NCBI RefSeq assembly: GCF_030127105.1
Contig: NZ_CP126161.1
Location: forward strand, 1,736,001 to 1,800,000
Source of the DNA: Haloarcula pelagica
GTDB lineage: Archaea > Halobacteriota > Halobacteria > Halobacteriales > Haloarculaceae
Reading direction: 5' to 3'
DNA: 64,000 nt
The notes beneath the pieces were generated by a model. That model made no database searches. It was not told the origin of the DNA and saw only the letters and a list, made by a program, of their open reading frames with translations. Each line of letters starts with the position of its first letter. Positions within the stretch are counted from its first letter, which is position 1. Below, piece by piece: positions 22,019 to 55,892 of this stretch. The position numbers and the translations under genes were made by a program.

Positions 22019-24673
22019 TCAGGAGATGTGGATGGCGGGCTTGTTCGGCCGGGCCTTCCGGGCGAGGTCGTCGTCGCCGCCCCGTCGGACAGTCACGTCG
22101 GCACCGAACTCGTCTTCGAACAGCCAGCGGGCCTGCTCCAACACGGCGAGTTCCCGGTCGCCGTCGACGATCGGTTCCAGCCCGGCACCCTCCGCGGCCA
22201 GGTCGGCGGCGTAGTCGGCCGCGGCGTCGCCATGCTCCCTGATCCGCTCGTCGTCCATGATGGCGCCGACGATGGCGTCGCCGGGATCGGCCGCGCGGGC
22301 GATCTCGTAGGCGTCGTACTGCCAGTCGGGCGCGACGACGAGTTCGATCGTCTCGGGATCGTCGATGTCGACCACCTCGGTGATGTCCCGAACGTCGTCG
22401 AGCGTCGTCCGGACGAGCTGGCGCTCGATACGGTAGTGTTCGACATCCCGCAGCGACTCGGGCCAGTCGGCGGCCGCGACCGGGCCTTCCTCGTCCAGGG
22501 TGAGCCACATCTCCTCGGCGAGATACGGGGCGATCGGGGCGACCAGTTTCGTCAGTACGCGCAGCGCCCGCCCGTAGGCGAACCGATAGGGCTCGTCGTA
22601 GCTGGCGTACCGGCGCAACAGGCGCGCGAACCGCTGGAGTTCGCTGACGACGCGGTGGAAGCGGAACCGCTCGTACTCCTCGGTGACAGCGGCGATGGTG
22701 CGGTCGATCTCGCGTTCGAGGTAGGCGTCGTGGTCGGCGCTGTCGGTCCGGCCCGTCCCCTCGGCGAAGTCGGTTGCCATCCCGTAGAGAGTCTGCTGGA
22801 AGTCGTAGGCCGTCGACACGTCCTTGACCGTCCACTCGAAGTCCTGGGCCGGGTGGGCCGCAGAGAGGACGAACAGCCGGGTCGTCTCGGCGCCGTACTC
22901 GTGGGGCGCGATGTCGTTGCCCTTCGACTTGGACATCTTCTCGCCGCCGTGCAGCACCGTCCCCTGGTTGATGAGCCGGTCGACCGGTTCCCGCCGGTCC
23001 AGCAGTCCCAGGTCCGCGAGCGCGCGGGTGAAAAACCGGATGTACAGCAGGTGGAGCACGGCGTGTTCCTCGCCGCCGACGTACACGTCCACGGGAAGCC
23101 ACTCGTCGGCGGTCGCCTGGTCGAAGGGGGCGTCGTCGAAGTGGGGCGAGAGATAGCGCAGGAAGTACCACGAGGAGTCGACGAACGTGTCCATCGTGTC
23201 GGTCTCCCGCACCGCGTCGGCCCCACAGTCCGGACAGGTCGTCTGTTTCCACTCCTCGGCGGCGTCGAGCGGGTTCCCGGTCGTCTGGACGTACTCCGGC
23301 AGTTCGACGGGGAGGTCCTCATCGGGGACCGGAACGTGTCCACAGTCCGCACAGTGGACGACGGGGATCGGCGTCCCCCAGTAGCGCTGCCGGGAGATGA
23401 GCCAGTCCCGCAGGCGGTAGGTGGTCGCCGCCTCGGCGGTGTCGTGAGCCAGCAGACGGTCGCGGGCGGCCGTGCTCGCCAGCCCGTCGTACTCCCCGCT
23501 TGCGGTGAGCATCCCGTCGTCGGTGTACGGTTCCCCCGGGAGGTTCGTTCCGGTGCCGTCGACGGGTTCGACGACCTGCTCGACCGGGAGGTCGTGCTCG
23601 CCGGCGAAGGCGTGGTCCCGCTCGTTGTGGGCCGGGACACCCATCACCGCGCCGGTCCCCACGTCGTCTAAGACGTAGGCTGCGACGTACACCGGCAGCT
23701 CCTCGCCGGTGTAGGGGTGGGTCGCCGTGAGGTCGGTCTCGACGCCGGACAGGCCGGCGTCGTCGGCGTCGGCGACCGACTCGACGTAGTCGGCCACGGC
23801 CTCGTCCGCGGCGGCCAGTTCACGGGCGAGGTCGTGGCCCGGCGAGAGCGCGAGGTAGGTCGCGCCGTAGACGGTGTCCAGCCGGGTCGTGAACGCCTCG
23901 ATCGGGCCGGCGTCGGTCTCGAAGGCGACGCGGGCGCCCTCCTGGCGGCCGATCCAGTTGCGCTGGCTGTCCCGGACGCCTTCGGGCCACCCGTCGAGGT
24001 CGTCCAGGCCGTCGTAGAGTTCGTCGGCGTAGTCGGTGATCGTGAAGAACCACTGGTCGAGATCACGCTGTTCGACGCCGGTGCCACAGCGCCAGCAGAC
24101 CCCGCGGTCGTCGCCGTGGCCGGGACCGTGGCTCCGGTGGCGCTCGCTCCCCTCGGGTCGTTCGACCTGGGCGTCGGCCAGCACCGTCTCGCAGTCGGGA
24201 CACCAGTTGACCGTCGCGGCGTCGTACTCGACGAGTCCCTCGTCGTAGAAGCGGGTGAACAGCCACTGGTTCCACCGGTAGTAGTCGGGATCACAGGTGG
24301 TGATCTCCCGGGACCAGTCGTAGCCAAAGCCCATCTCTTCTAGGTCGTCGCGCATCCGCTCGATACACGAGCGAGTCCAGGACTCGGGGTCGGTGTCCCG
24401 TTGGTAGGCGGCGTTCTCGGCCGGCAGCCCGAAGGCGTCCCACCCCATCGGGTGGAGAACATCGTCACCGTCCATCCGGCGATAGCGGGCGTAGGCGTCG
24501 GTGATCGCGTAGTTGCGGATGTGGCCCATGTGGAGCGATCCCGACGTGTAGGGGAACATCCCCAGGACGTAGGTCGGGTCGGTAGCGTCGTCGGGACAGT
24601 CGTAGACGCCCTCCCGCTCCCAGACGTGTTGCCAGTACTCCTGGACCCGCGTGTGGTCGTAGCGACGAGCCAT
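22019..24673 (-). CDS. leuS: leucyl-tRNA synthetase (bacterial type)
   Basis: Class I synthetase of 884 residues that charges tRNA-Leu. HIGH is present as HMGH inside [28 protein letters not shown], which is the bacterial LeuRS form. KMSKS is present as MSKSKGN near residue 585. An editing (CP1) domain lies between, from about residue 220 to 430, with [21 protein letters not shown]. Two Cys pairs (CPDCETV, CWRCG) form the zinc region. Bacterial-type LeuRS is known in haloarchaea from ancient transfer. I chose the ATG at 24673; a longer upstream reading contains repeat-derived sequence and is not protein-like. Confidence 0.95.
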
Positions 24674-24690
24674 TCGATACCGTAGCCTCC

Positions 24691-24781
24691 GCCGGCCGTC
24701 CACATGAGTGTTCGGCCGGCGAGGCTGTCGACTCCGTGATCCGTGGACCGAGCCGGCCATCCACATGAGTGTTCGGCCGAC
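24691..24781. repeat. two near-identical 30-bp inverted-repeat elements between leuS and hel308
   Basis: Copies at 24691-24720 and 24752-24781 differ at 2 of 30 positions and have starts 61 bp apart. Each has an 8-bp arm (GCCGGCCG in copy 1), a 14-base centre identical in both (TCCACATGAGTGTT) and a closing arm. Copy 1 has perfect arms. In copy 2 both changes turn a pair into G-U when read as RNA on the leuS strand, but into mismatches on the hel308 strand. Copy 1 ends 17 bases before the leuS ATG. Confidence 0.7.
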
Positions 24782-24790
24782 AGTGCGACA

Positions 24791-24798
24791 GTTTAAAT
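24791..24798. promoter_or_regulatory. shared bidirectional TATA box for hel308 and possibly leuS
   Basis: GTTTAAAT sits 26-33 bp upstream of the hel308 ATG (24824), giving a leaderless start. It is AT-symmetric enough to serve the minus strand too; a leuS transcript from it would start inside repeat copy 2. Confidence 0.5.
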
Positions 24799-24823
24799 CG
24801 CGGCAGGACCCAACCGAGCAGTA

Positions 24824-27229
24824 ATGGACGTTGCGGACCTGCCGGGCGTGCCCGACTGGCTGCCCGACCATCTACGCGGAGACGGGATCGAGGAGCTGTA
24901 TCCACCCCAGGCCGAGGCCGTCGAGGCCGGGGTCACGCGCGGTGAGAACCTCGTCGCCGCCATCCCGACCGCGAGCGGGAAAACTCTCGTGGCGGAACTG
25001 GCGATGCTGTCCTCGGTCGCCCGCGGCGGGACGGCGCTGTATATCGTCCCGTTGCGCGCGCTGGCAAGCGAGAAGCGCGCCGAGTTCGAACAGTTCGAGG
25101 AGTACGGCTTAGACGTAGGCGTCTCGACGGGCAACTACGAGTCCGACGGCGGCTGGCTGGCCGACAAGGACATCGTCGTCGCCACCAGCGAGAAGGTCGA
25201 TTCCCTCGTGCGAAACGACGCGCCCTGGATCGGGGACCTGAGCTGTGTCGTCAGCGACGAGGTCCACCTCGTCGACGACGGGAACCGGGGACCGACGCTG
25301 GAGGTGACCCTGGCGAAGCTCCGCCGGCTCAACCCCGACCTGCAGACGGTTGCGCTGTCGGCGACCATCGGCAACGCCGACGAACTGGCCGGCTGGCTCG
25401 ACGCCGAACTCGTCGACTCGGACTGGCGGCCCATCGACCTCCAGAAGGGGGTCCACTACGGCCAGGCGCTCCACCTCGAAGACGGGAGCCAGCAGCGCCT
25501 CGCCGTCCGTAACAACGAGAAGCCGACCGCCGCGATCGTCCGGGACACGCTGACCGACGACACCGACGAGGACGGCGAAGTGGTCGAGGAGGGGGGCTCG
25601 ACACTGGTGTTCGTCAACTCCCGGCGCAACGCCGAGTCGGCCGCCGGCCGGCTGGGGAGTACGGTCCGACCCCACCTCAGCGACGACGAGCGCGACCAGT
25701 TGGCCGACGTGGCCGCCGAGATCCGGGACGTGAGCGACACCGAGACCAGCGACGACCTGGCCGACGCCGTCGCCGACGGCGCGGCGTTCCATCACGCCGG
25801 GCTGGCACGGGGCCACCGGGAACTCGTCGAGGAGGCGTTCCGGGACCGGCTCGTGAAGGTCGTCTGTGCGACGCCGACGCTGGCCGCCGGCGTGAACACG
25901 CCCTCCCGGCGCGTGGTCGTCCGGGACTGGCGCCGCTACGACGGCGAGGCCGGCGGGATGCAACCGCTCTCCGTGCTGGAGGTCCACCAGATGATGGGGC
26001 GGGCCGGCCGGCCCGGACTCGACCCCTACGGCGAGGCGGCGCTGATCGCCAACAGCCACGACGAACTCGACGAACTGTTCGAGCGGTACGTCTGGGCCGA
26101 CCCCGAGCCCGTGCGGTCGAAACTCGCCGCCGAACCCGCTCTGCGGACACACATCCTGGCGACGGTCGCCTCCGGGTTCGCCCGGTCGCGCGGCGGCCTC
26201 CTGGAGTTTCTCGAACAGACGCTGTACGCGAGCCAGACGACCGAGAGCGGCCGGCTCGAACGGGTCGTCGGCGACGTGCTCACCTACCTCGAACGGAACG
26301 GCTTCGTCGAGCGGGACGGCGACGAACTCGACGCCACGTCGCTTGGCCACACCGTCTCGCGGCTCTACCTCGATCCGATGAGCGCCGCCGAGATCGTCGA
26401 CGGGCTGGAACACTGGGAGCGCCACGCGGCCGAACCGGCGACCGACGGCGCCGAGCGGGCCGCCGATGACGGGTTCACGACCGCGAGCGAACTCGCGGAC
26501 GGCGAGCAGGCCGGCGCGGCCGGGACGGACCCCGACGACATCTCGGCGCTGGGCCTGTTCCATCTCGTCTCGCGGACGCCGGACATGTACGAACTGTACC
26601 TCCGGTCGGGCGACCGCGAGGAGTACGAGATGGCGGTGTACGAGCGCGAGGCCGAACTGCTCGGGCCGACGCCCTCGGAGTTCGAGGACGACCGCTTCGA
26701 GGACTGGCTCGCGGCGTTCAAGACCGGCCGGCTGTTGGAGGACTGGGCCTCCGAGATCGACGAGGAGACGATCACCGAACGCTACGGCGTCGGCCCGGGC
26801 GACATCCGCGGGAAAGTCGAGACCGCGCAGTGGCTGCTGGGGGCCGCCGAGTCCCTGGCAAGCGAGGTCGGTCTGGACGCCGCACCGGCGATCAGCGAGG
26901 CCAGGCGGCGGGTCGAACACGGCGTCGGCGAGGAGCTGATCGATCTGGCGGGCGTGCGCGGCGTCGGCCGCAAGCGCGCCCGACGGCTCTACGACGCCGG
27001 CATCACCGACCGCGCCGCGCTGCGCGACGCCCCGAAACCGACCGTCCTCGCGGCGCTCCGGGGCCGGGAGAAGACCGCCGAGAACGTCCTGGAGAACGCC
27101 GGCCATCGGAACCCCTCGATGGAGGGGGTCGAACCGGACCCGGACGTTGCGGTCGTGGCGGACGACGGCTCGGCCGGAGAACGGTCGGACGACACTGCCG
27201 AGGACCAGTCCAGCCTGGGGGATTTCTGA
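24824..27229 (+). CDS. hel308: Hel308 family ATP-dependent DNA helicase
   Basis: Superfamily 2 helicase of 801 residues that unwinds lagging-strand forks with 3'-5' polarity and helps fork restart. Motif I is [16 protein letters not shown] near residue 45; the DEVH box is [12 protein letters not shown] near 144; motif VI is [14 protein letters not shown] near 390. The C-terminal ratchet and a helix-hairpin-helix ([21 protein letters not shown]) follow, with a short acidic tail. The Q-motif-like start ([17 protein letters not shown]) is intact. ATG start. The TGA overlaps the ATG of cgi121, a pairing conserved in many haloarchaea. Confidence 0.96.
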
Positions 27230-55819: not shown

Positions 55820-55892
55820 AGTCCGGGTGCGGGAATTGAACCCACGTCTCAGCCACCACAAGGCTGAAGGATACCACTACCCCAACCCGGAC
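55820..55892 (-). tRNA. tRNA-His (GUG anticodon)
   Basis: A 73-nt cloverleaf on the minus strand. The acceptor is GTCCGGGT paired with ACCCGGAC, so the extra G-1 is encoded in the gene and pairs with C73, the His identity signature. Anticodon stem CAGCC/GGCTG with loop TTGTGGT gives GTG. T arm has GGTTCAATT. No intron. Confidence 0.93.

Follow-up and report, generated by a model that had tools for sequence, protein, structure and literature searches.

The two hairpin-forming repeats between leuS and hel308 in the window, the 64,000-nucleotide stretch of Haloarcula pelagica DNA analysed here, are very probably (we would say roughly 0.85) a duplicated BRE/TATA core promoter of leuS-B'', with transcription starting about 5 nt before the ATG. 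It appears that a short DNA element stays with this accessory leuS in most of the haloarchaea that carry the gene, and an RNA switch in the leuS messenger is an improbable reading of it.

Both 30-bp copies described in a sequence-only reading of this DNA are present where it placed them, and both can form hairpins. Copy 1, GCCGGCCGTCCACATGAGTGTTCGGCCGGC, spans 24691-24720; copy 2, GCCGGCCATCCACATGAGTGTTCGGCCGAC, spans 24752-24781. They are spaced by 61 bp and mismatch at two positions. The claim that their 14-base centres are identical holds for the identity but not for the length, since 20 nt run without change between the two differences. The direct repeat can be followed over 39 nt (85% identity, shift of 61 bp). 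Matches to the core number two in the 64 kb, against 0.03 expected (up to 3 mismatches allowed). As the same reading had remarked, the two differences between the copies keep pairing as G·U only in RNA of the leuS strand, being A·C on the other. The leuS-strand RNA is predicted to fold at -59.9 kcal/mol (z = -5.06), while z for the opposite strand is -3.13. The features are collected in Table 1.

Table 1. Features of the leuS/hel308 intergenic region and its two flanking genes (window coordinates).
Feature	Position	Strand	Basis or remark
leuS, bacterial-type leucyl-tRNA synthetase, probable B'' paralogue	22019..24673	-	ORF; TIGR00396 over cut-off; same start codon as in orthologues
Predicted start of leuS transcription, some 5 nt ahead of ATG (offset 36)	24678..24678	-	A in 61/67 distinct elements
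Conserved A of -10 element, offset 26 from BRE C	24688..24688	-	63/67 distinct elements
Palindrome of copy 1; either strand can form the hairpin	24690..24721	.	two arms of 14 nt, 86% complementary, as an inverted repeat
Copy 1 core GCCGAACACTCATGTG, putative leuS BRE and TATA-like element	24701..24716	-	genus position; top upstream site, 4.99 bits
Distal unit, 39-nt direct repeat	24741..24779	.	partner unit 24680-24718
Copy 2 core, putative duplicate BRE/TATA-like element, 61 bp upstream	24762..24777	-	identical core; lacks -10 A and start-site A
hel308 core promoter GCGACAGTTTAAATCG	24785..24800	+	10.1 bits at -39; kept with hel308 away from leuS
hel308, divergent neighbour	24824..27229	+	ORF

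Alignment of leuS upstream regions, proposed earlier as a check, confirms that the element is linked to leuS and kept in relatives, and that its centre is the conserved part. In nearly all of the 32 genomes of the genus, GCCGAACACTSATGTG occurs as an exact match upstream of leuS, always at this gene and 26-27 nt before its ATG, which is the position of copy 1 in the window. CGAACANTSATRTR is found at leuS orthologues of several families. The orthologues of other families have CGAACA[ACG]T[GC]AT[AG]T, situated 36-57 nt ahead of the start codon. In 78 of 91 leuS orthologues, other families included, the pattern GAACANTS turns up no farther than 90 nt from the start, although these sequences are related by descent and the counts are not independent. 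When 12 genomes were searched with CCGAACANTSATRTR, 11 of them had the pattern, each time at leuS only. This search with a strict 15-nt pattern thus brought no regulon to light. The orthologues of three genomes of the Halorhabdus group (G067, G070 and G072; loci L253, L254 and L255) are devoid of the element and have a seemingly ordinary T-rich TATA box. The promoter may thus have been exchanged there or never acquired.

The layout of the element is that of a promoter. A 16-nt promoter matrix was derived by EM from 131 genes with unambiguous starts in the window's own genome; the matrix is small, resting on 400 kb plus the window, and training set out from the consensus in the literature. Run over positions -200 to -8 of leuS (about 177 positions), it places the element first in 49 of 78 cases and among the top three in 71. 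On the leuS strand of the window the two copies outscore every other site, at 4.99 bits each, and leuS elements in general score in the middle range, 3-5.6 bits. Further upstream there is no promoter signal beyond chance, the best matrix score being 2.37 as against 2.39 in shuffled sequence. The AT profile upstream of leuS has its sole peak at the motif. Conserved cores of comparable size, 14-16 nt, are seen in other leuS and hel308 promoters of the genus.

Counted from the C of the BRE, the leuS element shows AA at 2-3, then T7, A9, T10 and T12 within a TATA-like block that spans 7-12, and finally A26 and A36. An A occupies offset 26 in 63 of the 67 distinct elements and offset 36 in 61, the latter despite a varying distance to the ATG. 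In 37 ordinary promoters of the window's genome, AT content peaks at 2-4 (BRE A), 7-11 (TATA) and 26-27 (-10). The offsets in the leuS element fit a BRE, a TATA box, a -10 element and a start site. CGAA is present in 70 of 75 elements and is followed by C, giving CGAAC, one off the BRE consensus. The core promoter of leuS-B'' would then comprise a BRE (CGAAC), the TATA-like TSATRT, the A at -10 and the start-site A. TFB and TBP would bind the core of the repeat as DNA, and the leuS mRNA would begin some 5 nt ahead of the ATG. The protein-binding operators that had been offered as an alternative to an RNA element thus survive in altered form, as a BRE/TATA site which TFB and TBP presumably occupy. 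The start predicted near 24678 lies downstream of both copies, the outcome that the sequence-only reading had itself set against an RNA leader.

A TATA box shared by leuS and hel308, which would have put the leuS start inside copy 2, is not upheld. TTTAAA scores 10.08 bits toward hel308 and 3.81 toward leuS, less than either copy. With its flank it is kept at hel308 in genomes of the genus where hel308 is far from leuS, the two genes being adjacent only in the window species and its sister species (G006). TTTAAA thus belongs to hel308.

The pairing that makes the repeats so striking is not conserved. Imposed on 30 rows of the genus alignment, the structure of the sequence-only reading pairs 68.5% of cells, compared with 67.6% after shuffling, and the covariation expected of its arms did not appear: one pair shows a double change, versus 1.8 in shuffled rows. 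An alternative pairing register gives the same outcome. Across the genus the 5' arm (GCCG) hardly changes while the 3' arm is free to vary, and a 4-bp stem is missing from half of the sequences. Arms of 9 bp are confined to the window species and G006, and the long GC-rich hairpin arms are a trait of this lineage. No Rfam covariance model, the T-box included, matches the region at its gathering score; among sub-threshold matches the best (E 0.029) is to a family of CRISPR repeats, on the opposite strand. The sole Rfam match in the window as a whole is a tRNA gene (55821-55891, minus strand). An upstream ORF starting at an ATG in the loop was discarded: its frame relative to leuS differs among relatives owing to 1-nt length changes, and no conserved peptide results. 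A K-turn/L7Ae site, suggested by the internal loop, was set aside once the pairing failed.

These counts bear directly on the proposal that leuS is transcribed from farther upstream and that its translation is controlled by a protein or tRNA attaching to the leader hairpins. The strong predicted fold of the leuS strand, the G·U character of both differences on that strand and a 'loop' sequence that is conserved across families between variable flanks all speak for such a leader. Nonetheless we regard it as very improbable on account of the pairing counts, the absence of a promoter signal upstream (a judgement from sequence) and the lack of an Rfam match. In addition, read on the leuS strand, G006 shows one C·A mismatch in copy 2 and several mismatches in copy 3, the inner CAC/GTG pairs are broken in other families, and the constant offsets of A26 and A36 are those expected of a promoter. 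Hardly any weight is left for chance, or for a mobile hairpin repeat inserted twice in the intergenic region, a notion which the GC-rich palindrome, present twice, might invite. The full core (up to 2 mismatches) has no other copy in the genome save two weak partial matches, and its orthologous presence at leuS of relatives already refutes such an origin. Since the core is seen at leuS only, a dispersed repeat was ruled out.

The duplication itself distinguishes the window species and G006, which have, respectively, two and three units at the 61-bp spacing. In both species the A at -10 and the start-site A are found in the proximal unit only. The distal units (copy 2 of the window and both distal copies of G006) have G at offset 26, and window copy 2 is also without A at offset 36. 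They are therefore likely to be weak or relict promoters, or additional TBP/TFB sites. According to the proposed scheme, a 61-bp promoter segment was tandemly duplicated in an ancestor of the two species, perhaps when leuS moved next to hel308, perhaps at another time. The proximal copy would have retained the full promoter architecture, and the distal copies the BRE and TATA-like block only. In another genome (L238, G215) the element has been partly duplicated in tandem, independently, with units 77 and 46 nt before leuS, 31 bp apart.

It could be that the distal copy also starts transcription, yielding a minority leuS mRNA with a leader of about 65 nt that contains the copy 1 hairpin. The BRE and TATA-like block of copy 2 are intact and score as high as those of copy 1, and the core has been kept in both copies while the flanks have diverged. 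We consider a second start doubtful, however, given the replacement of A26 by G in all three distal copies and the missing A36 of copy 2. The core promoter reading has difficulties of its own. All leuS elements have G or C at position 8 and A at position 9 of the TATA block, a combination found in none of 45 ordinary promoters. This non-consensus block and the mid-range matrix scores are points against a plain core promoter. Moreover, a weak dyad symmetry around the core amounts to 0.71 +/- 0.21 bp per genus, with 19 of 25 genera positive, compared with 0.13 +/- 0.13 in the 45 ordinary promoters, an excess that is inflated by shared descent. A plain core promoter would give no account of this excess, which leaves room for a regulator. 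One possibility, somewhat unlikely in our estimation, is a gene-specific operator: the imperfect palindrome would enclose the core promoter and be bound by a repressor or activator of leuS-B'', and duplication would add sites. The arms that pair do differ between clades (AACCG/CGGTT in G078 and G081, TGGCA/TGCCA in G058 and G059, GTGCCG/CGGCAC in G364), and CGAACA recurs 5 times upstream of leuS-B'', as against a mean of 0.52 for permuted hexamers. On the other hand, sequence conservation is limited to the 5' half, and a conserved pair of symmetric half-sites is therefore lacking. The free variation of the 3' arm within the genus and the stemless half of its sequences count against an operator too, many of the Natrialbaceae-type 3' arms are alike through descent, and at high stringency the regulon search found no second gene with the site.

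Haloarchaea possess many TBP and TFB paralogues (PMC4230888), so that a specialised pair reading TSATRT is possible. With due reserve, leuS-B'' may be imagined to have a promoter type of its own, handed on with the gene from lineage to lineage: the non-consensus TSATRT, set in an imperfect palindrome and either read by a specialised TBP/TFB pair or kept down by a dedicated regulator. If so, the spare synthetase would be made only under particular conditions, and the tandem copies would tune the switch. The leuS-B'' promoter is a defined 40-bp element with which it can be tested which TBP/TFB paralogue reads it.

The leuS of the window is probably the B'' and not the B' gene, an assignment that rests on the patchy, B''-like distribution of its orthologues. 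The second LeuRS-B of the same genome is a TIGR00396 match at G000:C1:2070774-2073056. Genes for B' have their own conserved core promoter, GGGAAAGSTATAGCA, upstream (L274-L293), quite unlike that of leuS-B''. Andam et al. (2012), who named the members of such pairs B' and B'', reported B'' always beside B' (PMC3436685). Here B'' occurs beside B' or LeuRS-A. In 13 genomes it is found without a second LeuRS-B and with a full archaeal-type LeuRS-A that exceeds the TIGR00395 cut-off (G075, G079, G114, G078, G080, G062, G063, G400, G422, G316, G230, G257 and G250). Neither a second LeuRS-B nor LeuRS-A was seen in G060, a genome 89% complete.

A striking pair of hairpins can turn out to be a duplicated promoter. 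Bacterial leader RNAs such as the T-box stand in front of aminoacyl-tRNA synthetase genes, and the repeats resemble them in placing a hairpin ahead of a synthetase gene. They differ in that the leuS hairpin is without covariation and without an Rfam match, and is predicted not to be transcribed with leuS.

The closer likeness is to the haloarchaeal core promoter, with its BRE CGAAA, TATA TTWT and -10 WW (PMC4983044). The leuS element shares with it the BRE-like CGAA and the offsets of the TATA-like block and of the -10 A, and is the only AT-rich spot upstream of leuS. Its A at offset 36 compares with a start some 36-38 nt after the BRE C in the known promoter. It departs from that promoter in having TSATRT, conserved across families, in having a single A instead of WW at -10, and, in the window, in being duplicated.

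A literature search retrieved no description of the leuS-B'' promoter. Haloarchaea retain this second, apparently redundant leucyl-tRNA synthetase (PMC3436685), and conservation of its promoter across families, with the same two deviations in the TATA block, suggests that its expression is distinct from that of the main LeuRS. As in the paper that described LeuRS-B'', the window leuS is a second bacterial-type LeuRS beside LeuRS-B', and gene neighbourhoods are not conserved. Unlike in that paper, B'' is here also accompanied by LeuRS-A in place of B', and the promoter, which was not treated there, moves with the gene.
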